DNA of 64,000 nucleotides from a virus. A model generated the notes under the pieces. It did no database searches and had not been told where the DNA came from. It saw only the letters and a list, made by a program, of their open reading frames with translations. This document shows, one piece after another, positions 177 through 43,070 of the stretch (positions are counted from its first letter, which is position 1; every line of letters begins with the position of its first letter). The stretch is taken from positions 1 through 64,000 of IMG/VR virus record IMGVR_UViG_3300011113_000675; one strand, given 5' to 3'. Made by a program: the position numbers and the translations under genes.

Positions 177-1928
177 ATGGATGTAAGTCTAGAATCGAAA
201 GCATTATCACTATTGGAATCTTATGAAGGTGGAAATAACTATTTGCTTGAACTTAAACGAAAGTCTCAAATAAATAAAAAATTCTATCCAACAAGAAGCC
301 AATCCGAGTATATAATCAACAACCATAACAACCAACCGAAGGTTGCTAAGAAATGGGTAATTTTAGACGCATATTTTGCAAAAAAGTTAGCAGACGACAA
401 ATTATACACTGTGATACCTGACAAAGTATGGGTTGAAAAATTGTTGTGTGATACAGAAAAAGCATTTCACATTTGGGGTAGAGTTTTCGAAAGTGAAGAA
501 TTTCACGATTTTTGGTTACCAAAAGCGGCAATTATTAAAGACAATTCAGTCAAAGATGTTGTAATTGATTACGAAAAATATTCTCACAGACCTCCACTAC
601 AACATCAAAAAGAAGCAATTCAAAAACTTGTTGAAAACAAAAAATACATATTGGCGGACGATATGGGTTTAGGAAAGACCACTTCAACAATTATTGCTGC
701 ATTGGAAACGGGAGCTAAAAAGGTTCTTATCATCTGTCCCGCAACTCTAAAAATTAATTGGAAAAGAGAAATTGAGAACTACTCAGACAGACCGATATTC
801 ATATCGGAAGGAAAAACCTTTAGTACCGAACACGATTTTGTTATTATAAACTACGACATTATTAAAAACTTTCATGACACTAAGAAAAAAGATGAATCGC
901 AAGTTATTGCTGCCAATTTTGATTTGGTGGTCGTTGACGAAGCTCACTATATTAAGAATCCTACGGCCCAAAGAACAAAACTAATAAACGACATTGCAAA
1001 AGGCGTAGATAGATTATGGTTGTTGACGGGTACCCCAATGACATCAAGACCTATGGATTATTTCAATCTACTGCATCTTATTGAGTCCCCTGTAGCAAAA
1101 AATTGGATGGCTTACGCCATCAGATATTGTAGTGGATATCAGTTTAATGTAGGGGGACGTAAGGTTTGGAACGTGACTGGTTCATCCAACTTGGAAGAAC
1201 TAAGAGATAGAACAACAGGTCTTGTACTACGACGACTTAAAGAAAATGTTTTGGACTTACCTGAAAAAATAATTACTCCCGTTTATCTTCGATTGAAATC
1301 CAAAGCATATGAAGAAGTTATGGGTGAGTATTATGATTGGTATGATAAGAACCCTGAAGAATCAAAATCTCTTACAGTTCAGTTTACCAAACTTACAAAA
1401 GTACGACAAATCATTGCTGACGAAAAAATACTTCAGACAATCGAAATTGCTGAGAACATCATCGAACAAGGTAAGAAGGTAATTATTTTCTGTAACTTCA
1501 CTGACTCCCTAAATAAAATTTGTCAACACTTTGGAAAAACTGCGGTCAAAGTTGATGGGTCTATGTCCAAACCTGAAAGACAACACAGTGTAGATAGTTT
1601 CCAAGAAAATGATAAAGTCAAAGTATTTGTTGGAAACATTAAAGCTGCGGGTGTTGGTTTGACACTCACAGCTGGAGAAGCGGTAATCATGAATGACCTA
1701 TCATTTTTACCATCAGACCACGCTCAAGCGGAAGATAGAGCATATAGATATGGTCAAAAAAATAACGTCTTGGTTTATTACCCAATATTCGAAAATACAA
1801 TCGAAGGAATCATCTATGACATACTAAATAACAAAAAACAAGTCATAGCAACTGTCATGGGTGATAACCTAAATTCATCTGACATGGCTGAAGAAATTTT
1901 GAAGAGAATAAATGAAATCAGAAAATAA
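177..1928 (+). CDS. SNF2-family DNA helicase/translocase
   Basis: A 583-residue superfamily 2 ATPase of the SNF2 type. Visible motifs in order are a Q-like PPLQHQKEA (139-147), Walker A DDMGLGKT (161-168), DEAH (254-257), LTGTP (283-287) followed by MTSRP, and in the C-terminal helicase lobe a GVGLTLT stretch and the motif VI signature QAEDRAYRYGQ. The arrangement, especially GTP-x-x-SRP, is closest to the SMARCAL1/HARP-like branch that remodels or anneals branched DNA. T4-like phages carry a different SF2 helicase, UvsW, for fork and recombination processing; this gene may fill that role, which is an inference. About 130 residues precede the helicase core and are not recognised. It is the first gene of a rightward cluster. 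Confidence 0.9.
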   Translation: MDVSLESKALSLLESYEGGNNYLLELKRKSQINKKFYPTRSQSEYIINNHNNQPKVAKKWVILDAYFAKKLADDKLYTVIPDKVWVEKLLCDTEKAFHIWGRVFESEEFHDFWLPKAAIIKDNSVKDVVIDYEKYSHRPPLQHQKEAIQKLVENKKYILADDMGLGKTTSTIIAALETGAKKVLIICPATLKINWKREIENYSDRPIFISEGKTFSTEHDFVIINYDIIKNFHDTKKKDESQVIAANFDLVVVDEAHYIKNPTAQRTKLINDIAKGVDRLWLLTGTPMTSRPMDYFNLLHLIESPVAKNWMAYAIRYCSGYQFNVGGRKVWNVTGSSNLEELRDRTTGLVLRRLKENVLDLPEKIITPVYLRLKSKAYEEVMGEYYDWYDKNPEESKSLTVQFTKLTKVRQIIADEKILQTIEIAENIIEQGKKVIIFCNFTDSLNKICQHFGKTAVKVDGSMSKPERQHSVDSFQENDKVKVFVGNIKAAGVGLTLTAGEAVIMNDLSFLPSDHAQAEDRAYRYGQKNNVLVYYPIFENTIEGIIYDILNNKKQVIATVMGDNLNSSDMAEEILKRINEIRK

Positions 1929-1941
1929 ACTGATTTTGTAT

Positions 1942-1949
1942 TATTTATA
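1942..1949 (+). promoter_or_regulatory. TATTTATA late-promoter-like box
   Basis: A perfect TATTTATA in the 26-base gap after the helicase stop codon, ending 5 bases before the ATG at 1955. Initiation at T4 late-promoter spacing would give a leaderless mRNA. Confidence 0.5.
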
Positions 1950-1954
1950 GTAAA

Positions 1955-3505
1955 ATGAAGCCAACAATGAATAAAACAGAAAAGAAGATTGAACAACTCG
2001 AATTACAGATTGTAGAACAAAAGGTAACAAGGGAAAAAGAGTTGTTAATCACAGAAATGAAAAAAATAGGGATAGAAAAGTTACCCTATTCCTACTCAGC
2101 CCTCAAACAATTTATCGACCCCGAAACAATGGATTTCCATTACAACAAACATTACAAGGGGTATGTTGATAAATTGAACGACGCTCTCTCTAAGAAAAAA
2201 TATGGAGATTTAGAGCTGGAACAAATAATCAAAACAATAAGTCGATTTGACAAAACAATTAGAAATAATGCTGGTGGAGCATTCAACCACGCATTGTTTT
2301 GGAATATGTTGACACCTGAACCCAAAAGACTAAAAGGGGAGTTACAGAAAAAAATAATCAAGGAGTTCGGTAGTTTTATTTTATTCAAGAAAAAGTTTGA
2401 AGAAATAGCTAAAGAGAGATTCGGGTCAGGATGGGTTTGGTTAGTCTTGACAGGAAGAAACAGTTTGAAAATTATGTCCACACCAAACCAAGATAATCCT
2501 TTAATGAATATTATTGAAGGTGGAGGATTCCCACTATTAGGATTAGACTTGTGGGAACATGCTTATTATCTTAAGTATAAAAACAAAAGAGATGAATACA
2601 TCTCAAACTTTTGGAAGGTTGTAAACTGGGACTTTGTTTCTAAACTTTATGAAATGAAAACAGAAACAAAACTTTTGGAATCAGTCGAAATGAAAAAAAT
2701 AATCAAAGAGTTTAAAGAACCAAAATTTTGTAGTTCAAATGAAATTACTTTCTATAAAGGATTAATCAATAATCCAAAAATAAAAAAATTATATCAAGAC
2801 GGTGTTACAGATGTTTTGAAACAAGTATTCCATGAATATTGGGTAGAGAGTAATGAGAAAGAAATGTCTGGTTTTTATGGAATTGAATCCGATAGTGCTA
2901 GATCCGTTTTAAATAATTTGAATACTAATTTCAATACTTTTTGTTTATTGACAAAAGCAATCAATAGACAAATTGAGTCAATAAACAAACCTAACAAAAA
3001 GTTTGATTTTTCCATCAAAGAAAAACGTACAGTCGAGGAGGTTAGTCGACTCATCGCAGCTTTGGATTATTTCAAAAAAGAAATTTTCACAAAAAAAAAT
3101 GAAGATTTTATTAACATCATTAGTGTCTTGTTAAAACTATGGGATAGAGGACAAAAATCTGAAGACAAAGTTCTTTCTAAGATAGAACAATATTTCGGTA
3201 AAGATTCCTCAGTTGAAAAAATCGGTGGTCATGGTCAAAAAAGTGATGCATTCAAAGGTATTGATTTGATAGTTAATCTTGATGGTAAAAAATATACTGC
3301 TCAAGTAAAACCTTTTTCGTCCATAAAAAAAGAAGGTGATAAAATCACAATTATGGACACAGGTAATGTTAAACCATATAACGTAGATTGGATGATATTT
3401 ATAAACACGAAGTCTAATAAAATTCTAATTATCGAGAATAATCCAATAGAGAGTCGTGACCAATATGTTTTCAATACGTCATCTCTGATTCACGAAATAG
3501 ATTAA
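1955..3505 (+). CDS. Fe/Mn superoxide dismutase fused to a PD-(D/E)XK-like domain
   Basis: A 516-residue fusion. Residues about 43-233 form a complete Fe/Mn superoxide dismutase. Metal ligands align as H62, H112, D198 and H202 (in LDLWEHAYY), with H66 and Y70 of the active-site gateway. NNAGG at 104-108 and Q179 in NQDNPL match the Mn-type rather than the Fe-type pattern. The domain would convert superoxide to peroxide. Residues 1-40 are a charged helix. Residues 240-400 are an unrecognised, probably helical linker. The C-terminal part (about 410-500) has GIDLIV (D437), then Q450-V-K452 on a predicted strand, the core spacing of PD-(D/E)XK nucleases with Q in place of D/E. No stop codon or frameshift separates the parts. 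SOD activity is well supported; nuclease activity is a hypothesis. Confidence 0.85.
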   Translation: MKPTMNKTEKKIEQLELQIVEQKVTREKELLITEMKKIGIEKLPYSYSALKQFIDPETMDFHYNKHYKGYVDKLNDALSKKKYGDLELEQIIKTISRFDKTIRNNAGGAFNHALFWNMLTPEPKRLKGELQKKIIKEFGSFILFKKKFEEIAKERFGSGWVWLVLTGRNSLKIMSTPNQDNPLMNIIEGGGFPLLGLDLWEHAYYLKYKNKRDEYISNFWKVVNWDFVSKLYEMKTETKLLESVEMKKIIKEFKEPKFCSSNEITFYKGLINNPKIKKLYQDGVTDVLKQVFHEYWVESNEKEMSGFYGIESDSARSVLNNLNTNFNTFCLLTKAINRQIESINKPNKKFDFSIKEKRTVEEVSRLIAALDYFKKEIFTKKNEDFINIISVLLKLWDRGQKSEDKVLSKIEQYFGKDSSVEKIGGHGQKSDAFKGIDLIVNLDGKKYTAQVKPFSSIKKEGDKITIMDTGNVKPYNVDWMIFINTKSNKILIIENNPIESRDQYVFNTSSLIHEID

Positions 3506-3511
3506 TAAAGA

Positions 3512-3519
3512 TATTTATA
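3512..3519 (+). promoter_or_regulatory. TATTTATA late-promoter-like box
   Basis: A perfect TATTTATA in the 18-base gap between genes, ending 4 bases before the ATG at 3524. Confidence 0.5.
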
Positions 3520-3523
3520 TTAT

Positions 3524-4651
3524 ATGTCAGCAATACCAGAACCAGAACGAAGTAAGATATACACTAGAATCAAACACCAATTAGGTGCTCCACTCAGAAG
3601 TGTAGAGCTCGAAGACGAAATGTTGGATTCACTAATGGAATTGGCCATAGGGGATTATGAAGAATATATTCTTCAATGGCTAATTGATTCACAGTGGGTC
3701 AACCTTGTAAACTTGAATATGAATGAAAGGTCCGTCGCCAGAGCTTTAGTAACTAGAACAATGGATTTCGAACAACAATTTAGTTATTCATACTCTAAAA
3801 TTGTTGGTCTTCAAACTGAAGGCCCTTGGGTTCTAAAGAAAGATTATTTCATTTTGAGTGCTAACACACAAACTTATGAAATTCCAGCAGGACGAGAAGT
3901 CAACGAACTATTATGGTTTTCAAACCAAGCTTGGACAGCGTTTGGATTAGGAGGTCTCGGTGGATTTGGATTTGGTGGTATTGGTCTGGGAGCAAACGAA
4001 GCCGGTTATGCCCAAATGGGTTATCAAGGGTCTTATTTCATGATGTCAGGTTTTGATTACTTGATTAGAATGCAAGAAGCGAACATCCTAAACAGAATCT
4101 TAGGAGGTTCCTTGACCTATAGAATTACAGGTCTTCCTGACGGAAAAAAACTCATTCACCTATACAATACCCCTGGTGGTAAATTTAACTGGTCAAACTA
4201 TAACCTTTATGTTGGTAAAGCAGTATGGTATTGGTATTATGATGTTGAACCAGACAGTCGAGCAGATTGTTTGAAAAACAATCCTGATATTATCAAACTT
4301 CCAACAGACGTTCCTATCGAAGAATTAACTTGGACTGACTTAAACGTACCAGGCCAACAATGGGTTAGAAGATGGTTTACCGCTTATTGTAAGGAAACTT
4401 TAGCAAGGGTTAGAGGGAAATATAGTGGAAACCTTAAGACTCCTGACAGTGAAATCGTTATGGACTATCAGAGTTTGTTAACTGAAGCTAAAGATGAGAA
4501 ATCTAAATTGATTGAAGAATTGATTGGTGCTGAAGGTTGGTTGACTAGAATGAGACCAGATAAAGTAATGGAAAGAGAAGCATTGATTGCTGAAAATTTA
4601 AATAAACAAATGAAATTCAGAGCAATGCCTCGGCAAATATACGTAATTTAA
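3524..4651 (+). CDS. 13: gp13-like neck (head completion) protein
   Basis: 375 residues. The C-terminal third (WVRRWFTAYCKETLARVRGK, then a stretch beginning around residue 310 with SLLTEAKDEKSKLIEEL) resembles the T4 gp13-type neck protein, which sits between portal and tail and closes the DNA-filled head. A Gly-rich segment around residues 146-162 (GLGGLGGFGFGGIG) looks like a flexible insertion. The family call comes from remembered motif patterns and was not searched. An otherwise unassigned virion structural protein is the main alternative. The start is fixed by the TATTTATA box just upstream and the lack of an earlier in-frame ATG. Confidence 0.6.
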   Translation: MSAIPEPERSKIYTRIKHQLGAPLRSVELEDEMLDSLMELAIGDYEEYILQWLIDSQWVNLVNLNMNERSVARALVTRTMDFEQQFSYSYSKIVGLQTEGPWVLKKDYFILSANTQTYEIPAGREVNELLWFSNQAWTAFGLGGLGGFGFGGIGLGANEAGYAQMGYQGSYFMMSGFDYLIRMQEANILNRILGGSLTYRITGLPDGKKLIHLYNTPGGKFNWSNYNLYVGKAVWYWYYDVEPDSRADCLKNNPDIIKLPTDVPIEELTWTDLNVPGQQWVRRWFTAYCKETLARVRGKYSGNLKTPDSEIVMDYQSLLTEAKDEKSKLIEELIGAEGWLTRMRPDKVMEREALIAENLNKQMKFRAMPRQIYVI

Positions 4652-8256: not shown

Positions 8257-9933
8257 TTATGACTCTTTACGAAGCCCCCTATCGTAATGTTCGAATCTAT
8301 CGTGTTCCGTTGGTGTTAATAATAGCAATGCAGGATTTAATTGTCCTTTTTTGACTAATTGATACATATGAGACATCCAAGTCTGTTCAAAAGGGTGTGC
8401 CCAAGTTGTATCTAAAAACATTTTTTGATTTCCTGGCCTACTTACAATCTGGGGCCAATTACAATAATATACTTCACCAACAGCGTAAGGTAATCCTTTA
8501 TAGGACAATACTTGATTGAATTGAGTTTTAGGAGCATTTGGGTCTAACCCCATTTCAGGTAATCTTGGTTTATCGGGCCAGAACTCTGTCCTAACATGTT
8601 GTGGTACATTGTACCAAGACCACTGAGTACCATTATCGCCATAAAACTCAGAATAATTAAGTTTTATAAAATCAAAATTTTCTTTTTTGATAATTTCTAA
8701 GGATTTACTGTAAAGGTTTGGAACATACCTATTGAATCCATTCCTACAAACTGTACCTTCGTTTGGATAGAAAAACATATCATCTTCAAAAAACAAGTAA
8801 TAGTCCAAGTCTGTTTCATTTTGGAAATGTTCTGCAATCCATTGTCTACCTCCACAAATTCCCAAATTATCTTTTTTAATATGTTCAAAGCCGAATTCTT
8901 TACAAATTTCCGAGTATTCCTCGGTAGTAGATAAATCACTAGAATTATCTAATAAAAATTTACTTGTTTTATTAACATAATCTTTATCATAAGCCAACAT
9001 AGAATCAATTAAAGTTCTAAATTGGTTCGGACTATTAAAAGTAATAACATATAACCCGACTTTGTTTGTATCCAAATTATTCACAACTTGTACAGAACTT
9101 TCGTTTTTAACTTTTAAGTTATCATTTTTAAGTTCTTCGAAAAACTTACCCACTAATCCATTTGATTCTATTTCGAAATAGTTAAACAAATCAGAATGTT
9201 TGTAACACATAATACTGAACAATGATTCTTCAGTACCCATATATCCTTCGTCTAAGGTACTCTTCATCAATCCATAATAGATGGAGTTTACATCACCAAT
9301 TGTATGCTTAGGTCCTCCAAAAAATCCTCCTCTAGCAACTTTGTTTACTTTCGATCCAGCAATTGAATTCAACTTGGAATATTCAAATCCATGAATTTCT
9401 CTTTCAGCGTCATATGGGAAACAAACAAACGAAAATTTAGAAATATATTTAGATAGATTATTTAAAACTTTATCATGTGTAAAATAACCTGGATGTACTG
9501 TGTTTGTTAATCCGCCATCAATCCAAAACATGTATTCGGAATTAAATTGGTCCATAATTTTGGCATCATGTAACAAAAACATTTTTGACATTACTAAAGG
9601 ATTGTAATTTTCTAAACGCCCTTGTGTAGATTCTTTCAACCATCCAGATTGATTATACCATTCCGGATTTGTTCGGATTTTTTGAATCATCGGAAAAAAT
9701 TCTGACTTGGTAAACCAACTAAGTGGTCTGGTAATAAATTGAGTATTTTTAGTATTCCTTCTTTCGAAAACAAAAGATTTCAATTCTTCGTCTCCAAAAA
9801 TGATAAGGTTTTCTTCTACCTTCAATAATTGGTCAAATTTATCCAAATAGTGTTGATAAGACCTACTCCAACCTTCGGTTAGTTCTCCACGACCAATATC
9901 CCAAATACCTGTAACTAAAGTTATATTACTCAT
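8257..9933 (-). CDS. HtrL/YibB-like domain fused to a GT-A glycosyltransferase
   Basis: 558 residues with two modules. Residues 1 to about 270 resemble the HtrL/YibB/WlaTC family (TLVTGIWDIGRGE at the start, YMFWIDGGLTN, ARGGFFGG, EESLFSIM), found in surface-polysaccharide loci. From about residue 290 a GT-A fold begins (GLYVITFNSPNQFRTLIDSM) with the metal-binding stretch FFEDDMFFYP. The protein probably transfers one or two sugars to a glycan, but the substrates cannot be read from sequence. It overlaps the next upstream gene by 8 bases, so the two are translationally coupled, and belongs to a four-gene leftward glycosyltransferase run. Confidence 0.75.
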   Translation of the reverse strand: MSNITLVTGIWDIGRGELTEGWSRSYQHYLDKFDQLLKVEENLIIFGDEELKSFVFERRNTKNTQFITRPLSWFTKSEFFPMIQKIRTNPEWYNQSGWLKESTQGRLENYNPLVMSKMFLLHDAKIMDQFNSEYMFWIDGGLTNTVHPGYFTHDKVLNNLSKYISKFSFVCFPYDAEREIHGFEYSKLNSIAGSKVNKVARGGFFGGPKHTIGDVNSIYYGLMKSTLDEGYMGTEESLFSIMCYKHSDLFNYFEIESNGLVGKFFEELKNDNLKVKNESSVQVVNNLDTNKVGLYVITFNSPNQFRTLIDSMLAYDKDYVNKTSKFLLDNSSDLSTTEEYSEICKEFGFEHIKKDNLGICGGRQWIAEHFQNETDLDYYLFFEDDMFFYPNEGTVCRNGFNRYVPNLYSKSLEIIKKENFDFIKLNYSEFYGDNGTQWSWYNVPQHVRTEFWPDKPRLPEMGLDPNAPKTQFNQVLSYKGLPYAVGEVYYCNWPQIVSRPGNQKMFLDTTWAHPFEQTWMSHMYQLVKKGQLNPALLLLTPTEHDRFEHYDRGLRKES

Positions 9934-10807
9934 ATATTCTATTAAATTCTTCTAAAATTTTATAAAAACTTTTATTTTGTTGGAACAATTCATCAGATGC
10001 TCCCCTCGGTGCACTATCCCTACACCACCAAATATCGAAATGTTTTCTTTCGAAAAGTTCTTTGTGATTATAATACATTAAACTCATTACTTGTTCTTCG
10101 TGAGGAATGTTATGGTCTTCGATCAGAATGTTATTTACGTAGTTTTCGAAAAGACTAACAACCTCATCCCATTTACTCTTGTGTCCACCGAAAAGACCAC
10201 CAATTATATGTAACAACCTGTCGTACTCAGTATACCATTTTCTATCAACCGTACCTGACCAAAAATTTCTATCATTCTCCTTACCAATTATTAAAAATTT
10301 GTCATTGGTATCCACGATAAGATTTTTCAAAAATTCATTGTTAAATAAAGAACTTTCATAATATCTCCTTATTAGTTCATTATTTGTTAGATATTTTAAC
10401 GGAATTAGTCCACAGTGGGACAGTCCTGCGTCGATCCAATAGTAGTAGTCATATGACTTATCTTCATTCCACCACCAATGAAACTTGGAGTATTGAATTT
10501 CTATACACCTATCTGACTTTTTAGTTTCCTCAACATTTTTATATTGGTTTATCAAATCTCTGAACTTAGTTTGTGAAATATCAAAAATTTGAAACTTAAG
10601 TTTTTCAGGTGATATCTGATGTTCTTGATAAAAAAAAGTTTCTAGTGAACTTATTTCTCGGTCCGAAGTATAACATAAAAAGTCGGCATCTGTCATTTTA
10701 AGTAATGACAACAAACTAAACCTATAGTGACCACCTCTATTATTTCTTCCACCATATTCGGTACCATAAAGATCACTGTAAATTGAAGTTATAAATTTAA
10801 CTCTCAT
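9926..10807 (-). CDS. HtrL/YibB-like protein (paralogue of the neighbour's N-terminal domain)
   Basis: 293 residues sharing the layout of the first domain of the downstream gene: KFITSIYSDLYGTEYGGR start, YYWIDAGLSH, HIIGGLFGGHKSKWDEV and EEQVMSLMYYN. HtrL/YibB proteins occur in lipopolysaccharide and capsule loci and are thought to be glycosyltransferases; the exact reaction is not established here. It overlaps both neighbours (8 and 11 bases), so it is a middle gene of a tightly coupled operon. The pair looks like an old tandem duplication followed by fusion of one copy to a GT-A domain. Confidence 0.65.
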   Translation of the reverse strand: MRVKFITSIYSDLYGTEYGGRNNRGGHYRFSLLSLLKMTDADFLCYTSDREISSLETFFYQEHQISPEKLKFQIFDISQTKFRDLINQYKNVEETKKSDRCIEIQYSKFHWWWNEDKSYDYYYWIDAGLSHCGLIPLKYLTNNELIRRYYESSLFNNEFLKNLIVDTNDKFLIIGKENDRNFWSGTVDRKWYTEYDRLLHIIGGLFGGHKSKWDEVVSLFENYVNNILIEDHNIPHEEQVMSLMYYNHKELFERKHFDIWWCRDSAPRGASDELFQQNKSFYKILEEFNRIYE

Positions 10808-11546
10808 AGTAATATTGTTTGTGATTATTCCCTGATTTAATCAGTTCATTTTTATTTTCATCTCTGAATTCAATAGGTATTTTGAATGGTGAGTAAAGAT
10901 TCCAATTATATGTTTGAGTATAAAAATTATTATACATCCCTTGGGATACATCAGAATACGACCTCCTCTGAGGGGCAATAGGTAATATTGGACAATAACT
11001 TTGAAACTTAGGGTAAATAAATTTAGCCAAATATCCGTCTATAGGATGATAAAAATCACCACTAGTTGTGAATGAATTTTCTGAAATCTTGGGGATTTCA
11101 TCATAAACCGAAACATCATAAATCAACATATTTGTTGCAAATGTTTCGGCATAATCCTTTTTGTAGTTTGAAGGTAAATTTGTCAAGTCCAAAAGTGTTT
11201 CATATTTCTCACTCACATTCAACTTCGAATTAAGTGTTGGTGTAACATTAAAAACTCCAAATTCAATATCACCAATTTGTTCTTCAATTTTGCTTAAAAG
11301 AGATTTGGCGTAAGGCATAAAAATACAGTCATCTTCAATAACCATAACTCTTTTATAACCCCGTTCTTTAGCAATTTTTATAATTTCCAAATGAGATAAA
11401 GTACAACCCATATAATCTCCACGATTTATGGCATTAAACCTTTCCCATTCCCATTCAATATAGTCCATTTCCTTACGGATGTTTTCTAAATTTTCTGGTC
11501 TGGTTTCTAAATTTATTACGAACTTGGGTATTTCTGAAAATTTCAT
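10797..11546 (-). CDS. family 25-type glycosyltransferase
   Basis: 249 residues with the GT25 (LPS glycosyltransferase) pattern: KFVINLETRPENLENI near the N-terminus, GCTLSHLEIIKIAKERGYKR, then MVIEDDCIF carrying the metal-binding acidic residues. GT25 enzymes add galactose or related sugars to lipooligosaccharide and, in other lineages, to collagen hydroxylysine. Its ATG overlaps the stop of the upstream gene by one base (TAATG), typical of coupled translation. Confidence 0.8.
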   Translation of the reverse strand: MKFSEIPKFVINLETRPENLENIRKEMDYIEWEWERFNAINRGDYMGCTLSHLEIIKIAKERGYKRVMVIEDDCIFMPYAKSLLSKIEEQIGDIEFGVFNVTPTLNSKLNVSEKYETLLDLTNLPSNYKKDYAETFATNMLIYDVSVYDEIPKISENSFTTSGDFYHPIDGYLAKFIYPKFQSYCPILPIAPQRRSYSDVSQGMYNNFYTQTYNWNLYSPFKIPIEFRDENKNELIKSGNNHKQYYYES

Positions 11547-12808
11547 TAAGATACTACATTGTGATTTAGTTGTCCTGTTAATCTATCACACCAACCTTTG
11601 GACTCGGAGTGAGGCCATACAACCCAATATGAAGGTAAAACTGTTGTAGGAAATTCTCTCCACACTTTACAATACTTATCAGGGTCTCTGAAAAATCCTG
11701 CAATTTCATTCTTATCAGCGTCTTTCCTGAAAATAGTTTCATCGTTAGGTCCGTGAAATGCAACCACCCAAAAATCGTAATCCTTTTCAGGAACACTTGC
11801 ATATCCCACATCAATACAATGTTTATAAATTGTTGAGAAACTATTTTTCCACTCCTCCTCGTCTTCAATTAAAGGACTTGGTGGATATTTTTTGTCTAAA
11901 CAATGTTGGTCCACTGCTCTTTTTTCGAACAACAATCCAGAATATCTTTCATATTCTCTCAAAGTTCTTACAGGTCCGAAACCAAATGGCCCATCATGAC
12001 CCTCTTGCGTCTCACCATCCATACCGAATAGTTTTCTATTAGTATGGTGAGAATGTTTATTTTTTTCTCCCCAAGTTTTATCATCATCCCATTGTTTAGT
12101 TCTACCTTTACGAGTGTATTCATGATAAACTACAGGAATGTGTGGGTGGAACAAATCATATCCCCATGTGTATGCTCTTGCCGCAATAGAAATTTCTTCT
12201 CCATGAAAATAGTATTCAGGGTTGTGTTGTACCTCCGTTGAGAATTGACCTACAGTGAAACAGAAGTGTGCTGAGTAGAATCTTGCAGTTACAGGTTTTG
12301 TCATTTCTTTCCAACCTGGTATTGTTTCAGGTAAGAAGAATACCGCACCTTCAGGAATGAATCTGTCAAATGCCATTCTCCAAGCGTCTTGTGATCTACC
12401 TGCAGGGTCATTTTCAGGGTCAAATGACGGTACATAACCTGTTAACAAAGGTTTTTTATACCCATCTTTTTGTAATCCCTTAATCATTTTTATAAGAATG
12501 TCATCCCAATCTTTGACAAATCTCATATGTGAATCAATCTGTAATGTATATTCTTCTCCATCATAAAGTTGTTGAGTCATGTTTCTTGCCCAACATACCC
12601 CTTTCGATTCTTGGTATGGGATATCCATAATTTTGAATCTTTTGTCATTTCTGAACTCATCTAAATTATCGAATCCATCAGTTTCATTAAATTGTCTAGC
12701 AATAGAAAAAACTAAATTTTTTGGTCTTTTTGCATTTGCAATCATGTCCTTCAAAGTTGGGACTAATTGAGGATCTCTGTAGGATGCTATTTGAACGAAT
12801 ATTTTCAT
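11546..12808 (-). CDS. GlcNAc-transferase-like glycosyltransferase (GT60/PF11397 type)
   Basis: 420 residues. The start IFVQIASYRDPQLVPTLKDM, GVCWARNMTQQLYDGE, then QIDSHMRFVKDWD and later YYFHGEEISIAARAYTWGYD are the hallmarks of the glycosyltransferase family that includes the Skp1 hydroxyproline GlcNAc-transferase. DSH occupies the DxD position. Related enzymes modify protein hydroxyls, so virion Thr/Pro-rich linkers encoded just upstream are conceivable substrates, which is inference. It is the first gene of the leftward glycosyltransferase run, separated from the adhesin genes by a terminator. Confidence 0.8.
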   Translation of the reverse strand: MKIFVQIASYRDPQLVPTLKDMIANAKRPKNLVFSIARQFNETDGFDNLDEFRNDKRFKIMDIPYQESKGVCWARNMTQQLYDGEEYTLQIDSHMRFVKDWDDILIKMIKGLQKDGYKKPLLTGYVPSFDPENDPAGRSQDAWRMAFDRFIPEGAVFFLPETIPGWKEMTKPVTARFYSAHFCFTVGQFSTEVQHNPEYYFHGEEISIAARAYTWGYDLFHPHIPVVYHEYTRKGRTKQWDDDKTWGEKNKHSHHTNRKLFGMDGETQEGHDGPFGFGPVRTLREYERYSGLLFEKRAVDQHCLDKKYPPSPLIEDEEEWKNSFSTIYKHCIDVGYASVPEKDYDFWVVAFHGPNDETIFRKDADKNEIAGFFRDPDKYCKVWREFPTTVLPSYWVVWPHSESKGWCDRLTGQLNHNVVS

Positions 12809-12884: not shown

Positions 12885-13901
12885 TTAAGAACATCCATTA
12901 GGGTCAACAGCGGTAATTTGTCCTAAACCACCTGTGACTTCGAACACTGCGGTTCCGTTTGAGTAAAAACCATTAGGGACAGGGTTTGTAGGAGGATTAC
13001 CTGGTGTAGTATACAAGAATTCTAATATATTAGGACCAACTCCGCCAGCGACAGTTCCGTAAATTGTATTAGGTGCTGATATATAATCTGAACAAGCTAA
13101 GTTAGCCGTTGAACCAGTGCCTAAACTATATGTGTAATATCCGAATGTTGGTGTTGGAGATGGTGTTTGAGTTATTGTAGGAGTTGGAGTTGGTACATTC
13201 GAACAAATTATAATTGAACCAATTACCGCTCCACTCGAATCTAATTCAGCAACGTTTCCTGAATTTGCATAGTAACCAGCACTCAAACCTGTATTACCCA
13301 ATCCATCTACATAGAAATTATCGGATAAGTCAAACTGAGGATTATTACCCCAGATTGTTCCTGATACTCCAACTTCACAAGCTTGATTTGAGGTCGAGCC
13401 TGAAGTAATTGAGAACGAGAAGAATGCATTGGTTGGTGTCACTGTTGGTGTATTGGTTGGAGTTCCTGTCGGAGTTTGTGTTTGAGTAACTGATGGTGTA
13501 GGTGTTGGAGTACCAGTGTTAGTTGGGGTTACTGTCTGAGTTGGAGTTCCTGTCTGTGTCGGAGTTGGTGTTGAAGTACTAGTTTGAGTTGTGGTAACAC
13601 TTGGTGTTGGTGTATTAGTTGCAGTATTTGTCGGTGTTGCAGTTTGTGAAGGAGTATTTGTTGGTGACGGAGTAGGTGTATTTGTTGCCAAAATTGGTGG
13701 GAACGCACCTTCATTAATTAATGATATACCCCCTTTGAATGATGGGGCCACTGTATAGGTGCCGTTGATTACCCAAATATTTTTGGTTTGATTTGGTAAT
13801 AATTCAACTTGATAATCCCACATAGAATCATCACATCTTCTGTAACTGAAGTTCACTAATGTGGAACCCGTGTTCGTAAGTACATATTTACTGCAAGCCA
13901 T
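12885..13901 (-). CDS. Pro/Thr-linker virion adhesin-like protein
   Basis: 338 residues. The N-terminal ~80 residues are a small domain ([35 protein letters not shown]). Residues about 75-165 are a low-complexity linker of TPTxT units. The C-terminal half holds two similar Ser/Gly-rich modules: [14 protein letters not shown] and [15 protein letters not shown] mark their starts, separated by a second short Pro/Thr stretch. The architecture suggests an extended fibre or decoration protein with repeated binding domains. It has no signal peptide, as expected for a virion component. Its terminator is at 12834-12864 and its box at 13920-13927. Confidence 0.75.
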
Positions 13902-13919
13902 AGTTTTTCTTATTTAATT

Positions 13920-13927
13920 TATAAATA
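13920..13927 (-). promoter_or_regulatory. TATTTATA late-promoter-like box
   Basis: Perfect TATTTATA on the coding strand, 18 bases before the ATG at 13901. Confidence 0.5.
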
Positions 13928-13954
13928 CTGCAAACTTTTATAATTTTCAACTTA

Positions 13955-13992
13955 TTTTAAACGAAAAAAAAAATCCGTATTTTTTTTATTAG
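13955..13992 (-). terminator. weak A/T-rich hairpin, possible terminator
   Basis: An A run, a short CCGTA centre and a T run lie immediately downstream of the leftward gene ending at 13997. The stem would be nearly all A:T, so the call is tentative. Confidence 0.3.
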
Positions 13993-13996
13993 TAAA

Positions 13997-14563
13997 TTAA
14001 CATACCCCAACATTTATTACTAAAGTTCCACTTAATTGGACAAATTTTGCGCCATCAGAAAAAGTAAAAAAGTTTCCTAATGGTGGGATTGTTAACTCTT
14101 TATTACCATATACTCGATCACCAACTTGAAGTTCATCGAATGGGATAGTGGTATAAATTGTTGCGTTTGCAGGATTTGCAATCATATTGACTGATTCACA
14201 AACATTTTGATACCAACCTCCTGCTCTTATATTTCTTTTGTAAACAGGTGAGGGTGTATTGGAAGGTGTTACTGTGTTTGTCGGCGTTGGTGTCTGAGTG
14301 ACTGGTGTTGGTGATAAACTTACTGTTGGTGTAACAGATGGAGTTATTGATGGTGTTGGTGTGGAGGTTGGGCACAAACCCAAATCTGAAATATCTAATG
14401 GTCCACTATAACTTTCCTTAACTAAATCTTCCGCACAGACATAGTCAGTGGTTAGTGGACTTATAGTAGAAACATTTACAATTCCAGTACAACCTGTCCA
14501 CTTGTAATAGCCATCTTCTACACTATTGTAGTTTATTATTTGGTAGTAATTACAGTTTGGCAT
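13997..14563 (-). CDS. small Pro/Thr-linker virion protein
   Basis: 188 residues: an N-terminal domain of about 65 residues with a KWTGCTGIVNVSTISPLTTD core, a short linker of TPTPSxT units (about 68-105), and a C-terminal beta-rich domain (ELQVGDRVYGNKELTIPP, FFTFSDGAKFVQLSG). The N-terminal domain looks like a small Cys-containing module and the C-terminal one resembles modules in the larger adhesins. It begins one base after the stop of the upstream gene, so the two are co-translated. Function is inferred from architecture only. Confidence 0.7.
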   Translation of the reverse strand: MPNCNYYQIINYNSVEDGYYKWTGCTGIVNVSTISPLTTDYVCAEDLVKESYSGPLDISDLGLCPTSTPTPSITPSVTPTVSLSPTPVTQTPTPTNTVTPSNTPSPVYKRNIRAGGWYQNVCESVNMIANPANATIYTTIPFDELQVGDRVYGNKELTIPPLGNFFTFSDGAKFVQLSGTLVINVGVC

Positions 14564-14564
14564 C

Positions 14565-15134
14565 TTATATTTGTACGACTGTTACAATTAGGGATGGTAA
14601 TCCAGGTCGAGTTGGTCCAGTGGCACTTGGTTGTCCATATAGAATTACATGAGTGTCTGTGGTTGAAAACATCAATTCCATATAATCGTTAGCATTTAAA
14701 GGAGTGACAAAATTCCAAGCGGCAACAGTTAAGACATTATTATTTGCTAATGTAATGTCGGTTGCAGACCAAGGAACATCTGTACCATTAACTCTTAACC
14801 AAATTGTTAAAGATTCTGAAGTACCTCCTTGTGTTTTTTGTAACTGTGCCGAGAATTGAAGATTGAATGTACCTCCACTTGCAACTGTAAATTTTGTATT
14901 ATCAACAACTGTTATACCTGTATTATCAGCGGTGCTTGATGCACTTAAAGCATATATAGCGTTTTGTGTAAATCCTGATTGACTATTTTCTTGATAGAAA
15001 GAACCATACAATTTCCCGCTGGCCATGTATCCTCTTTTTATCTTATATGTTACACCATCTTGAGCAACCGCGTATTCCGCATTTGATGTTGTTGCAGTTA
15101 TTTCGGGTAATTGTGATATGGGTAAATTAGGCAT
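14565..15134 (-). CDS. C1q-like jelly-roll virion protein
   Basis: 189 residues. It starts with a short adapter, MPNLPISQLPEITATTSNAE, typical of phage tail proteins, followed from about residue 45 by a jelly-roll domain. Strand motifs include FNLQFSAQLQKT, ESLTIWLRVNGTDVPWS, NANDYMELMFSTTDTHV and a final RPGLPSLIVTVVQI, a pattern seen in C1q/TNF-like tips of phage fibres and decoration proteins. Such domains usually trimerise and bind surface ligands. A TATTTATA box stands 13 bases upstream. Confidence 0.75.
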   Translation of the reverse strand: MPNLPISQLPEITATTSNAEYAVAQDGVTYKIKRGYMASGKLYGSFYQENSQSGFTQNAIYALSASSTADNTGITVVDNTKFTVASGGTFNLQFSAQLQKTQGGTSESLTIWLRVNGTDVPWSATDITLANNNVLTVAAWNFVTPLNANDYMELMFSTTDTHVILYGQPSATGPTRPGLPSLIVTVVQI

Positions 15135-15147
15135 TTTGTTTTTATTT

Positions 15148-15155
15148 TATAAATA
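15148..15155 (-). promoter_or_regulatory. TATTTATA late-promoter-like box
   Basis: Perfect TATTTATA on the coding strand, 13 bases before the ATG at 15134. Confidence 0.5.
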
Positions 15156-15162
15156 TATCTGT

Positions 15163-16311
15163 TTATAGTCCGTATTTTGATTTGTCCGCATTGAAATTTT
15201 GTAATACTTGGGCCCCCGTTAGTCCAAGATTGTAAATTTGGCAAGCGCCTAATCTGTATGAGCATATTGATGTTGTTGTAGTCATATCTGTGGTAGTTGG
15301 ATATCCAAAATTAAAATACATTGGTAAAGAACCTCCGTCGTTGAATGGAGTATTTCTGACGTAAGTCGACGTTCCTACACTATTTCCATTTACATATGCG
15401 GTAAGAGTTCCATTGTATGTCCAACCAACATGATACCAATTATTCAATGCAAATACACCTGAAGTTATTGGTGCGGTATTGATGGTATACGGCCACACAC
15501 CGAATAAAAATCTATTACTCGAATCTCTTTGAATCTGTGCATCATACCAACCTCCGTCTGGAGTTAAATTACCCTGCTCAGAATATATTATTCCATTTGA
15601 GGTAGGGTAAATCCAAAGTAAAATTGTTTGTGCGGTGCCTGTGTTGACTGGCGATAAATATGGGTTGATGTTTGCGGTATAGATATATTCAGAAACACCA
15701 CCATCAATGGTTAAATATTTTGGAGAGCCACTCGTATAATCAATTGTCCCCGTCATAGTTCCATTAATATTTCCTTTCAAGTCGGTTATAGTTGTACCTG
15801 CACCGCTATAGGAACTTGAATTTTGTATATCCCAATCCATTATCAACCCTGTGGTAACAATTGGAGCTTCAGTTGGGGTAGGTGTTGGAGTACCCGTTCG
15901 TGTTGGAGTGGGTGAAGAAGTTTGAGTATTCGTTACAGATGGTGTTGGAGTTGCTGTTGGAGTTGCTGTTTGAGTTGCTGTAAAACTCGGAGTTGGTGTA
16001 GGAGTTGTTGTTTGGGTTGGAGTCGGGGTTGGTGAACCTGATAATAGAATACCAAAATTATCTTCCTGAAGTATCAAAGAATAGTTTTCTTGTAATAAGA
16101 AATCCGTACCAGGATTACTGATGTAAGCGAAACAAGTTTTATCGAAGGCTCCAAAATAAAGTTCATAACTTCCATAAATGTATTCCAACTCTGTTGTATA
16201 TGGTAATACATTTGCACCCAAACTTATTGTCCCACCAGTATCAGGATAGAACGTGATGTTGGCGATTTGACCATTGAAATTAGCACTCGATATTTGTACT
16301 CCTGTAGTCAT
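15163..16311 (-). CDS. LamG/concanavalin-like adhesin with Pro/Thr linker
   Basis: 382 residues. The N-terminal ~95 residues are an unidentified beta domain (QIANITFYPDTGGTISLGAN). Residues about 97-150 form a linker of TPTPT units. From about residue 155 a LamG-like (concanavalin jelly-roll) domain follows: LIMDWDIQNSSSYSG, QTILLWIYP, NWYHVGWTYNGTLTAYVNGN and CQIYNLGLTGAQVLQNFNADK. Such domains bind carbohydrates. It follows the giant adhesin by a single base and probably works in the same fibre or surface structure. Confidence 0.8.
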   Translation of the reverse strand: MTTGVQISSANFNGQIANITFYPDTGGTISLGANVLPYTTELEYIYGSYELYFGAFDKTCFAYISNPGTDFLLQENYSLILQEDNFGILLSGSPTPTPTQTTTPTPTPSFTATQTATPTATPTPSVTNTQTSSPTPTRTGTPTPTPTEAPIVTTGLIMDWDIQNSSSYSGAGTTITDLKGNINGTMTGTIDYTSGSPKYLTIDGGVSEYIYTANINPYLSPVNTGTAQTILLWIYPTSNGIIYSEQGNLTPDGGWYDAQIQRDSSNRFLFGVWPYTINTAPITSGVFALNNWYHVGWTYNGTLTAYVNGNSVGTSTYVRNTPFNDGGSLPMYFNFGYPTTTDMTTTTSICSYRLGACQIYNLGLTGAQVLQNFNADKSKYGL

Positions 16312-16312
16312 T

Positions 16313-19300
16313 TTATAATAGTGGTATATTCCATTTATTTGATAAGAACGTTTGAATGTTTTGAAGTTCCGCTGGGGATAAAGCTCTACTGTAAGCTAAA
16401 ACATCGAACAAGAAACCATTGTAGAAGAATTGTGCAACTCCTGATGCTGCTGAGGTGTAAGAAACACCCAAGAATACATAATCAATTAATAAGTTTGTTA
16501 ATGTTCCTATGTTAGTTATGTATGTTAAAGTTTGCCCTGAACCATCAATATAGAACTTCAATCTATCTTGATTTGTAACACCAGTTCCACTGAATACATA
16601 AGATATGATGTGAGGATTTGTATTGACAACACCTCCTGTTGCAAATCCACCGCCTACAGCAATATTGTATGTTGAAGCACTTTGTCTTATGTAAGATGCA
16701 TCCAATCCTGTATTTCCATCCGAGCCACCCTGAATGTATTGTGCGGTTTTAGTAGAATTCAAAGACCTAACAACCATAATAATCGTTTGACCTGATTTTG
16801 ATGATAAGTCAACAAGAGGGTTCACACTTAATCCATCTGAAGTTCCATTAAACCAAACACCACCAAGTCCATTTTGTTGATTACTCCACCATTCAGGAGA
16901 AGGACCAGCACCTCCACCAATCGGGTTAGCGTTGTGAGCAGATGCTGAGGAGTCCTCCCATTGTGTAAATGTAGAACCACTCGTTGCGTTAGGGTTAAAT
17001 TGGTCTCCTGTCTGACCCTGATAATAAATTTCAAGAGTTGGGTCACTCGGAACAACCGCTTGAGTTGGTGTTGGTGTTTGTGATGCGGTTATTGACGGGG
17101 TGTTAGTTTGTGTTGTAGTATTAGTTGGTGTCTGTGTTACTGTTGGCGTCTGTGTCACCGTCGGTGTGGTTGTTGGAGATGGTGCTATGGTTGGTGTTGC
17201 GGTTGGCGTTTCAGTATTTGTAGGTGTTGGAGTTTGTGTTGGACATTCTCCAGTTGCAGTTGCTTGAGCTTGACCCAAACCATTGTCACTTATAGTATAA
17301 ACAGTTCCTCCACTTGTTGCTTGGAAGTAGAATGTAGTGGCAACTGATGATGTTAACGTTTGAAGTTCAGCAATTGTATATGGGTCAGTTCCTTCAGGGT
17401 TCTGATATATTAATTCACCAATATCAATAGTTCCTTGAACATAAATCGTTGTAATCGATGAACTTCCATAACAAACAGCGTATGGGTTAGTTGATACATT
17501 ATATAGTGCGCCATCTAATGGATCGGTTGTGGTTGGAGTTGGTGTTAATGTAGATGTCGGAGTTTGTGTTGGGGTTTCAGTATTTGTTGGAGTTGGAGTA
17601 TGAGTACTTGTTTCCGTCATTGTAGGGGTTTGGGTTGGGGTTTCAGTGTTAGTTGGAGTTGGAGTCTGAGTACTTGTTTCCGTCATTGTAGGAGTATTAG
17701 ACGGAGTTGTGGTTGGAGTACTAGTTGGTGTTGGAGTTGGTAAAATAGTAATTTCTACATCACAAGCAATCAGAGTCGTTGCTGAAGGTGTTGGTGTTGA
17801 TGTCACCGTCGGCGTCTGAGTTGGTGTTTCAGTATTTGACGGTGTTACAGTTTGTGTTGGAGTTTCAGTCGGTGTAGGAGTTTCTGTCTCTGTAGGAGTC
17901 ACTGTACTAGTTGGAGTTTCTGTTGGTGTAGGAGTAGGTGTTTCTGTCTCAGTATTGCTTGGAGTTTGAGTTGGCGTAGGAGTTTCTGTCTCTGTAGGGG
18001 TTTCAGTATTAGTTGGAGTTTGACTAGGGGTTTCTGTCGGAGTCACAGTCGGAGTTTCTGAAGCTGTTTGAGTTGGAGTTTCAGTCGGGGTGATTGTAGG
18101 AGTTTCTGTTGGGGTTACAGTATTTGTAGGTGTTTCAGTATTCGTAGGAGTGGAGGTGGGGGTTGGAGTTTCAGTTTCAGTAGGAGTATTTGTTGGGGTT
18201 TCAGTATTAGTTGGAGTTTGAGTAGGAGTTTCTGTCGGAGTAGGCGTCTGAGTTTCAGTCGCAGTAGGAGTTAATCCCGCGGTTGCGGTTGTACTTGGTG
18301 TTGCAGTCTGAGTTGGTGTTTCAGTAGGTGTGTTAGTTGGAGTCTCTGTATTAGTTGGTGTTTGTGTCGGCGTAGACGTTTCAGTCTCAGTTGGAGTCTG
18401 AGTAGGTGTTTCAGTGTTAGTTGGTGTTTGTGTTGGTGTAGGAGTTTCTGTTTCAGTAGGAGTCTGAGTCGGAGTTTCTGTAGGTGTGTTTGTAGGAGTT
18501 TCTGTTACAGTTTGAGTTGGAGTTTCAGTGTTAGTTGGTGTTTGTGTTGGTGTAGGAGTTTCTGTCTCAGTTGGAGTTAGAGTTGGAGTTTCGGTGTTAG
18601 TTGGTGTTTGTGTTGGCGTAGGAGTTTCGGTGTTAGTTGGTGTTTGTGTTGGCGTAGGAGTTTCTGTCTCAGTTGGAGTCACAGTCGGCGTTGAAGTTTC
18701 AGTTTCGGTAGGGGTATTTGTTGGAGTTAGTGTATTGGTTGGAGTAATAGTTGGTGTTTGAGTCGGAGTTTCAGTATTAGTCGGAGTTGGAGTCGCACTT
18801 GGAAGAATTACGAAACAATCAGGGCATTTAGGGTTCAGTAACTTATACCTTTCTTTCAATAATTTGAAGTTATGCCAAACTTGAGATGCATTTAAAGGTT
18901 CAACATACATTCTAAATGCACTGACATCACCTATCATACTACCACCAAAGTATTCTTCTAACTTTATATGAGTGGTTAATCCTGAATAAATTGTATTATC
19001 TAAATCGTGAGTAGTCAAACATTCTGGATCTTGTTGATAAGTGATTTCACTAATAGATTCAGGGCACCCCCCTGAGAATGTCAAGTTGTCTTTGAGACCT
19101 TGAGTACCCCCCCCTAAAGAAATATTATATCCGACACCAATTTGTTTTTCTCTTTCGACATTCAATAACCTTGGGATAATCTCCTCAAAGTTTTCGGCAA
19201 TCATAAACAATTTTCCGTTTACGAATATTTTGAGAGTCCCCAATCTATATTTCTTTTCCTCAGTCCAATTATCGTTGAATGTTACAATTTCCGTTGTTGC

Positions 19301-20662
19301 TGGATCATAAGGTAACTCATGAGTTAATGGTGGTTCAATTAAACTGACACTATTATGTGCTGGTGTTGCGGTATAAATTGTATCAACAAGAAGTCCCAAT
19401 CCCCCTTTTTCATAAAGGTCACATGTATCTAACCACTGGTTTCTTTGGAATACAGCATCAATTTGAACCCAATGTTCCAACTGTATATACGGAGTATTTT
19501 TACATTCATCAAAAATACCACGTGTCGAACACCATTCTGTTACTGAGGTTCCTGTGTGATAAGTCAATCCTGTTTGGCAAGTTCCTGTTGTTTCACAACC
19601 TCCAGTTATTGTATAGGTTTTGATACATAATCTCGGATTACCATTGTCACCACTCAGTCGTAATGAAAGTCCATTTGACACCCCATCATATAGCGGGTCT
19701 TTTTCGGGATATTCGGCCTTCACAGTGCAATTACAAGGACATCCACAATTACAATTTGTTGAAGTACCTCCTGATATTTGATAAACCTCTAAACAAGTCG
19801 AAGCGGTGTTGGCAGAACTAGCACACCCACAAGTATGCATACAAGTTAATCCTGATGTTACTCTTGTATATCCTGTATCTTGTTTAGGTGACCCGTCGGC
19901 ATAATGGTAAAATTTGTTTTCCGCTCTCGACCCCATATAAAAGAACGTACCTTTATTATTAGGGTATCGATTGTTCAGTCCGACATTTGTATCTCCTGAC
20001 CAACGGTATCTTAACATGAACTCAGCCGTCCATCCTAATGGAACTCTTTGGGGGAACACTTGGTAATCATATCCAGGTATTTTGTAAAACCCTTGAAAAA
20101 ATCCTCCATTCAATCTTGCAAAATATCCAACAGGGTCTCCATCAGTTGTATAATTCAAATCGTAACTATATGAATCATCATTCCAAAGCCGGTTTTGTGT
20201 TGTAGTAAATCCTGTGATAGGGTGGAGTTTCATTCTCCTATCATATTTGTATCTACTATATTTGTCTGAATTATTTGTGTAAAGTCCTGTGGTTATTTGT
20301 ATTGTTTCCCCTGACATTTCTTTAACCAAACCATTATCAATACCTGTCAAACCAACATCACAAAGGTCTGTTACTTTAGGACAAAAGTTGGGGTCAATAT
20401 ATTCAGGGTTCCAATAATTTTCAGAAACTATGACATCATTATCAAATGTACAACCTGATTGACATAAAGTGGTTGCTGAATTATTGATGTCAAATTTAAA
20501 TGGCATTCTATTCCCATCATCTTCACCTATTAATAGTGGTGAAAAAATTACCTCTTGGTCATAGTCCTTCTCATCTGAAGCTAAACAGATATCGGTAATT
20601 TCGTTGACAGGTTTAATACCCCAACGTCTAAAATTATACTGATTAATATTTTGATATGCCAT
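16313..20662 (-). CDS. giant multidomain adhesin/tail fibre protein with long Pro/Thr linkers
   Basis: 1449 residues, by far the longest gene. Residues 1 to about 620 are a Cys-containing structural region ending in a LamG-like sequence ([20 protein letters not shown], then [21 protein letters not shown]). A linker of ETPTxTPTxT units covers about 625-955. Short folded inserts with further linkers occupy about 957-1205. The last 240 residues are a second LamG-like domain ([46 protein letters not shown]). The layout fits a stalked carbohydrate-binding fibre. The linker DNA is a degenerate short repeat on which antisense frames stay open by chance. There is no signal peptide. Confidence 0.85.
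17045..18790. repeat. degenerate short repeats encoding Pro/Thr linkers
   Basis: A long run of GTnGGnGTnTCnGT-like units (read on the plus strand) encodes the ETPTxTPTxT linkers of the giant adhesin, with two interruptions. Units differ at synonymous positions, so this is a protein-level repeat with drifting DNA, but it could still support unequal recombination and length variation. Confidence 0.85.
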
Positions 20663-20691: not shown

Positions 20692-20699
20692 TATTTATA
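20692..20699 (+). promoter_or_regulatory. TATTTATA late-promoter-like box
   Basis: Perfect TATTTATA, 15 bases before the ATG at 20715; the rightward half of the divergent pair at 20663-20714. Confidence 0.5.
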
Positions 20700-23359: not shown

Positions 23360-24580
23360 ATGTCAAAAATTAAAGTTTTAGTTGTTCCTTCTGACCGTTC
23401 AGGCGTTGGTAAATTCCGTTCAGTCGACCCACACATTTTTCTTCAAAATCAATATCCCGATGAGTTTCACGTAGACATCGTCTACGAACCATCATATGAG
23501 GATATGAGTTTTTGGAATCAATACCAAATAGTTGCATATCATAGAAGTATCGGTCCCGATTTCGATAAAGCACACCAATTAATCCAAGTATTAAACTCTA
23601 TGGGTGTTGTCACAGTTTGCGACATCGATGATTATTGGATGCCGGGGAAAGAACACCCCATTCACGATATTATCCGAGTTAATAAAATTAACGAAAAAAT
23701 TGTTGCTAACCTTAAAGTTTCCAAATTTGTCACAACAACAACTGAAATATTCGCTGACGAAATTCGTAAATACAACAAAAATGTTATTGTGTTTCCTAAC
23801 GCAATTAATCCAAACGAAGCTCAATTCAAAGAAAAAACTGAAGAGTCAGACAAAGTCAGAGTCGGATGGTTAGGAGGTTCTTCCCACTTACATGACATTC
23901 AATTATTAGATTCAGGTTTTTGTAAACTATTACCTCTTAAAGATAAAGTTCAATATGTATTGTGTGGATTCGATACAAGAGGAACTGTAACTGAAATAAA
24001 CGCACAAACTGGACAACAGACCAAAAGAAACATACTACCATCAGAGACTGTATGGGCGAGATACGAGGAAATTTTCACACAAAATTATAAAATAATTTCT
24101 GAAGGGTACAAAAACCATTTATTGAAATATAGTCAAGAAGAATACCTCGGAGATAAAAATGAATCATACTTGAGAGTTTGGACAAAACCAGTCACGGGGT
24201 ATGCTAAGAACTATTCAAAATTTGACATTTCCTTAGCTCCAATCAAAAACACAATGTTCAATAGAATGAAGTCACAATTAAAAGTGATTGAGGCTGGTTT
24301 TTATAAAAAAGCAATCATTGCATCCAACATAGGTCCTTATACAATTGACCTAAAACATTGTATGGAAAATGGTAATTTTGTAGATGGAAACGCCATCTTA
24401 ATCAATGAAGCAAGAAATCATGCTGATTGGGCAAAGTTCATTGAAAAACTAGTGAAGAATCCAAATCTAATTAAAGATATGGGAGAAAGGTTATATGAAA
24501 CTGTTAAAGACAAGTATGACTTGAATAATGTAACTAATGATAGAAAACAATTTTATATCGATATCGCAAATAAATCATGA
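23360..24580 (+). CDS. GT-B fold glycosyltransferase (GT4-like)
   Basis: 406 residues, similar in outline to GT-B retaining glycosyltransferases: an N-terminal Rossmann-like lobe (KVLVVPSDRSGVGKFRSVDP, VVTVCDIDDYWMPG) and a C-terminal nucleotide-sugar lobe (VRVGWLGGSSHLHD, then FDISLAPIKNTMFNRMKSQL and LKVIEAGFYKKAIIASNIGP, where the Glu would bind the sugar donor). The acceptor and donor are unknown. First gene of the large rightward cassette; its stop overlaps the next start by 4 bases (ATGA). Confidence 0.8.
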   Translation: MSKIKVLVVPSDRSGVGKFRSVDPHIFLQNQYPDEFHVDIVYEPSYEDMSFWNQYQIVAYHRSIGPDFDKAHQLIQVLNSMGVVTVCDIDDYWMPGKEHPIHDIIRVNKINEKIVANLKVSKFVTTTTEIFADEIRKYNKNVIVFPNAINPNEAQFKEKTEESDKVRVGWLGGSSHLHDIQLLDSGFCKLLPLKDKVQYVLCGFDTRGTVTEINAQTGQQTKRNILPSETVWARYEEIFTQNYKIISEGYKNHLLKYSQEEYLGDKNESYLRVWTKPVTGYAKNYSKFDISLAPIKNTMFNRMKSQLKVIEAGFYKKAIIASNIGPYTIDLKHCMENGNFVDGNAILINEARNHADWAKFIEKLVKNPNLIKDMGERLYETVKDKYDLNNVTNDRKQFYIDIANKS

Positions 24581-30029: not shown

Positions 30030-30030
30030 T

Positions 30031-31480: not shown

Positions 31481-31485
31481 AAAAA

Positions 31486-38848: not shown

Positions 38849-38856
38849 TATTTATA
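38849..38856 (+). promoter_or_regulatory. TATTTATA late-promoter-like box
   Basis: Perfect TATTTATA ending 3 bases before the ATG at 38860 and directly downstream of the sigma factor gene. Confidence 0.5.
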
Positions 38857-43062: not shown

Positions 43063-43070
43063 TATTTATA
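43063..43070 (+). promoter_or_regulatory. TATTTATA late-promoter-like box
   Basis: Perfect TATTTATA directly after the previous stop, 13 bases before the ATG at 43084. Confidence 0.5.

Follow-up and report, generated by a model that had tools for sequence, protein, structure and literature searches.

A superoxide dismutase joined to a predicted PD-(D/E)XK nuclease in a clade of large T4-like phages

Do phages guard the processing of their DNA from superoxide, or could they use superoxide as a signal? This question is raised by a gene on the plus strand (1955 to 3505) of a 64,000-nucleotide stretch of viral DNA, hereafter the window, which covers positions 1 to 64,000 of the 142,443-base IMG/VR virus record IMGVR_UViG_3300011113_000675. 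The gene is one intact open reading frame (ORF) with an ATG start and no internal stop, encoding 516 amino acids, and it joins a complete superoxide dismutase (SOD) domain to about 280 further residues in which Pfam matches nothing. Phage SODs have so far been viewed as free antioxidant genes, whereas the SOD here is attached to a predicted DNA-cutting domain. An initial annotation, made from the letters of the window, had described a single frame leading from a full-length Mn-type SOD into a PD-(D/E)XK-like C-terminus. The frame, the layout, supported by matches to both Pfam halves of the SOD, and every residue number given (H62, H112, NNAGG at 104-108, Q179, D198, H202, D437 and Q450-x-K452) proved correct, and it is near certain that the SOD and the C-terminal module are parts of one protein.

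An assembly join, which the initial annotation had itself raised as a possible refutation, or a read-through of two unrelated genes could produce such a frame. Homologues were gathered from IMG/VR contigs by searches with the full protein, with its C-terminus and with profiles, and the same fusion was found in 75 distinct full-length proteins, encoded by 83 distinct nucleotide versions, from separate, independently assembled contigs. Identity to the window protein is 83-98% in the SOD domain and falls to 29-37% in the middle and C-terminal parts of the most distant lineage (L093/L095). The dN/dS ratio is 0.02-0.09 in the SOD, middle and nuclease segments for the pairs where it was computable, and both the SOD and the C-terminal parts are under strong purifying selection. 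The order of helicase, fusion gene and connector gene is fixed in every locus as far as the contigs extend; contig L092 ends within the fusion gene. All that speaks for an artefact is contig L173 (816-2275), where a frame break, which may be natural or an error of sequencing, separates the middle from the nuclease part. With separate contigs, fixed synteny and purifying selection across all segments against it, an artefact has a negligible probability.

Pfam recognizes both halves of the SOD, with Sod_Fe_N (PF00081) matching residues 41-119 (E 1.4e-22, 80.4 bits against a gathering cut-off of 27) and Sod_Fe_C (PF02777) matching residues 127-230 (E 2.1e-39, 134.1 bits against a cut-off of 20.9), and the top PDB match of the fusion protein is a Sphingobacterium Mn-SOD (E 2.8e-59). 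The metal ligands (H62, H112, D198 and H202) are the same three His and one Asp in each of the 75 proteins, and the C-terminal catalytic Gln, Q179, and G196, two positions before the Asp ligand, are likewise invariant. In the SodFM survey, Mn-preferring SodFM1 enzymes usually combine a C-terminal Gln with Gly at XD-2 (PMC10172142). By these residues the phage domain would be a Mn-type SodFM1, in line with the original assignment and with the PDB match, and it is likely to have dismutase activity.

The closest cellular SODs are nearly all from Bacteroidota, at 45-57% identity. The Bacteroidota SodFM1 Mn-SODs share all metal ligands, the catalytic Gln, the XD-2 Gly and the WEHAYY dimer motif with the phage proteins, but they end near the SOD domain, with a C-terminal extension of at most about 10 residues, whereas the phage fusion continues for 280 residues. 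In a quick tree the phage fusion SODs form one group (SH-aLRT 81), a pattern that fits one acquisition from a Bacteroidota host and a subsequent fusion. Standalone phage SODs do exist; the initial annotation had mentioned SOD genes in some viruses. Those of Vibrio phage 2.275.O and of Pseudomonas phages such as Callisto/PA5oct are likewise phage-encoded Fe/Mn SODs, but they are short genes of one domain, 28-31% identical, that lie in another neighbourhood. The fusion gene was not assigned to this class of standalone auxiliary metabolic genes, the 280-residue module being attached in all full-length members.

Since a Foldseek search with the full-length model returned only SODs among the 50 matches listed, residues 236-516 were modelled alone by AlphaFold with 35 related sequences. 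The resulting model (pLDDT 82, pTM 0.72) runs from a helical region through a long helix into a beta-rich domain. As the initial annotation had anticipated for a structure prediction of the C-terminus, PD-(D/E)XK nucleases rank first in the PDB, at modest E-values: SPARDA DREN is the top match (E 0.011, prob 0.98), I-Ssp6803I also matches (E 0.036, prob 0.97), and a phage Holliday resolvase ranks lower (prob 0.57). In the full and partial models, helix 383-414 and strands 418-424, 436-442, 445-453 and 479-484 fit a PD-(D/E)XK core. The motif of that family, an Asp followed by (D/E/Q)-x-Lys on the next strand, is present in the full model, with D437 on strand 436-442 and Q450 and K452 on the adjacent strand 445-453. 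Furthermore, none of the 75 full-length proteins departs from E403, D431, D437, Q450 or K452; E403, a likely fourth active-site residue, and D431 had been overlooked before. DREN, whose catalytic residues are D41, Q60 and K62, itself resembles I-Ssp6803I (PMC12205087). Like both of them, the phage module has Gln-x-Lys on the strand after the one that bears the Asp (D437/Q450/K452, corresponding to D41/Q60/K62 of DREN), but it differs from them in being fused to a SOD, and its sequence similarity to them is undetectable. Membership in the SPARDA DREN-APAZ system was considered and rejected because the neighbourhood holds no Argonaute or APAZ gene; PADLOC gave no match to the module, and the neighbours are helicase and connector genes.

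A PD-(D/E)XK fold is therefore likely but unproven, given the modest E-values and TM-scores and a second core helix that is unclear, and on balance the domain would be expected to cut DNA. Alternatively, the domain could be nuclease-like in fold and serve in DNA binding or in a structural role, with the SOD as its dimerization module. The low TM-scores and the lack of a nuclease family match would suit such a protein; nevertheless, the Glu/Asp/Gln/Lys motif stays fixed in a domain that is otherwise mostly variable, and it is kept in a homologue that has no SOD, so that we regard a non-cutting domain as unlikely. By sequence, a PDB search with the C-terminus gave no usable match. PHROG 5018, a family of 134 positions with no function assigned, matches the C-terminus of the window protein weakly (E 0.0033); of 17 members, 12 show such a weak match in the nuclease core, the best at E 5.5e-5.

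The SOD-less homologue is a 290-residue protein (L098:3419-4291) of the 735-kb phage LR756501, which matches the profile of the C-terminal module (E 1.8e-17). It shares the middle region and the nuclease core, with the E, D, D and QxK residues kept, but it has no SOD and no cysteine at the sites aligned to C259 and C330. Because this phage has the same module without SOD, the SOD was probably a later addition to a nuclease family that phages already had. No further viral contigs turned up in a scan with the SOD-less protein, and a pattern scan with the nuclease profile in 84,980 bacterial and archaeal genomes found no relative, although it required a nine-residue pattern that distant relatives may escape. 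Small SET-domain-like proteins (phrog_28741) are encoded close to the C-terminal-module gene at L098:2951-3388 on the minus strand and at L093:2968-3435 on the plus strand, a neighbour common to the 735-kb phage and the L093 lineage, which are otherwise distant phages.

In the BFVD collection, the full module matches by fold A0A6J5L953 (E 3e-16, 29% identity), a 501-residue 'superoxide dismutase' of an uncultured Caudovirales phage. Annotated as SOD only but long enough for both domains, it is evidently, by its modelled fold, an already deposited member of the fusion family; viral proteins annotated in this way can conceal a second enzyme. By fold, the C-terminal module is also present in A0A8D9CCA0 (E 2.4e-13), an uncharacterized protein of 1113 residues from an uncultured marine phage, and for this reason the module probably has other fusion partners.

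The large terminase, major head protein and portal of the record match phage families common to T4-like phages, and contigs of 317 kb and 326 kb also carry the fusion gene; by such markers, its carriers are a widespread clade of large T4-like phages. The features of the locus are listed in Table 1. The fusion is kept across this divergent clade beside a virion assembly gene, the connector, among whose few relatives is a 'putative head completion protein' of Flavobacterium phage immuto, the isolate with the longest terminase match. The connector gene is preceded in immuto and in Microcystis phage Mel-JY01 by genes for PhoH or a small protein of no known function, not for SOD, and a homologue of the C-terminal module, looked for in both phages, was not found.

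Table 1. Coordinates in the window of the fusion gene, its predicted segments and its neighbours
Feature	Position	Strand	Basis
Whole SOD-nuclease (predicted) fusion gene	1955..3505	+	Intact ORF; 75 distinct full-length homologues of the same architecture
N-terminal charged helix, residues 1-38	1955..2068	+	AlphaFold helix 7-36, low confidence (pLDDT 51-68)
Complete Mn-type Fe/Mn superoxide dismutase domain, residues 39-235	2069..2659	+	Pfam PF00081 and PF02777; PDB Mn-SOD
Helical middle region, residues 236-395	2660..3139	+	AlphaFold helices; common to the SOD-less homologue L098
Predicted PD-(D/E)XK nuclease core, residues 396-516 (E403, D437, Q450-x-K452)	3140..3502	+	Foldseek; invariant residues
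Promoter-like motif TTATTTATA	1941..1949	+	5 nt before the fusion start codon
SNF2-type helicase, 583 amino acids, upstream neighbour	177..1928	+	SNF2-rel_dom E 1.5e-28; phrog_62 E 4.8e-115
Head-tail connector/neck protein, 375 amino acids, downstream neighbour	3524..4651	+	phrog_211 head-tail adaptor Ad2 E 3.3e-10

Several positions of the N-terminal segment (residues 1-38) are invariant. Upstream of the fusion gene, TTATTTAT(A/T) is found at a short distance in all 29 divergent loci compared. The sequence TATTTATA lies within 60 nt upstream of 22 of the 148 ORFs in the 142-kb contig, those for the portal and the connector among them, against 2.6 expected from 300 shuffles of the upstream regions (maximum 8). 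The motif is probably a phage promoter, and a late one. TATTTATA and the T4 late box TATAAATA are reverse complements of each other. Sites in the window are at 1942-1949, 3512-3519, 20692-20699, 38849-38856 and 43063-43070 on the plus strand and at 13920, 15148, 51628, 56012 and 62964 on the minus strand, and the motif also occurs in L383-L386. Protection of DNA at packaging or ejection, or a coupling of oxidative defence with DNA processing, had been proposed in the initial annotation; the motif and the connector neighbour agree with these roles but are only consistent with them.

Taken together, a bifunctional protein, probably made late by the phage, whose active Mn-SOD dimerizes and accompanies a nuclease acting on DNA, is the account that we hold with slightly better than even confidence. 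A single fusion event would have placed a Bacteroidota SOD gene ahead of a PD-(D/E)XK nuclease that the phages already had. Fe/Mn-SODs form dimers or tetramers; the SOD domain would fold as the usual dimer, active with manganese, and its dimerization would join two nuclease domains, each cleaving DNA by a D...QxK metal mechanism. The DREN monomer is inactive and its tetramer active (PMC12205087), and since DREN needs multimerization, a dimer-forming SOD could assemble the nuclease domains of the phage protein. In late infection the fusion protein would act on phage DNA that has been replicated or is being packaged, or else on the DNA of the host, while the attached SOD would clear superoxide near the DNA and near the enzyme's own metal site. 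The nuclease activity and its coupling to the SOD are what we infer, and the two activities may cooperate via co-localized protection, dimerization or a redox switch at C259/C330.

Several points weigh against this account. Both activities of the proposed enzyme are predicted ones. None of the PDB fold matches reaches E<0.001 (E 0.01-0.04), the TM-scores are low (0.23-0.43), the second core helix is indistinct in the AlphaFold model, and by sequence the C-terminus matches none of the nuclease families in Pfam, NCBIfam or PADLOC. Support for the single phage SOD group is moderate at an SH-aLRT of 81. Late timing is read from the motif and the neighbours, and the upstream helicase is not typically late.

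The SOD could also be a carried-along antioxidant, fused just to be made and placed with a phage nuclease while the two domains remain uncoupled, and shielding phage DNA, virion proteins or the host from superoxide, perhaps within the virion. The standalone phage SODs described above, the proposal that phage genes serve in defence against reactive oxygen species in fresh water (PMC6802176), the packaging of SOD in the virions of some giant viruses (PMC9405923) and the position of the SOD as the most conserved part of the fusion are all in its favour. Nevertheless, the retention of the fusion in 75 distinct full-length proteins suggests that the link between the domains matters, and we consider an uncoupled antioxidant rather improbable.

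A redox-gated nuclease would tie the two domains more closely. In such a protein the captured Mn-SOD would be both a superoxide sensor and a peroxide source, and the hydrogen peroxide that it makes would oxidize C259 and C330, switching a dimeric QxK nuclease on or off late in infection. The window protein has no cysteines other than these two residues of the middle region, which all 75 proteins keep (further cysteines are found in 2-4 proteins at three aligned sites), and the SOD-less homologue lacks both at the corresponding positions. However, that homologue is a single one for comparison, and invariant buried cysteines are common, so that a redox gate seems doubtful, and quite unlikely at this stage.

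The initial annotation knew of no fusion of SOD to a nuclease-like fold, and indeed no description of one was found in the searchable literature, a coverage that leaves out most subscription papers; among deposited proteins there is at least one member, annotated as SOD only. The fusion is a new domain architecture of known parts.

Beyond the fusion locus, the window carries two large sugar-metabolism islands, at 8257-12808 on the minus strand and at 23360-33119 on the plus strand, which encode an HtrL/YibB-like protein, a GlcNAc transferase (PF11397), a UDP-glucose dehydrogenase, an FkbM methyltransferase and an epimerase, a gene content that suggests glycan synthesis or glycosylation of DNA or virions. 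Several genes, including one for a protein of 1449 amino acids, match parts of phrog_15511, a family of unknown function, at 12885-20662 and 61643-62950, both on the minus strand, and these probably encode a family of fibre or decoration proteins.
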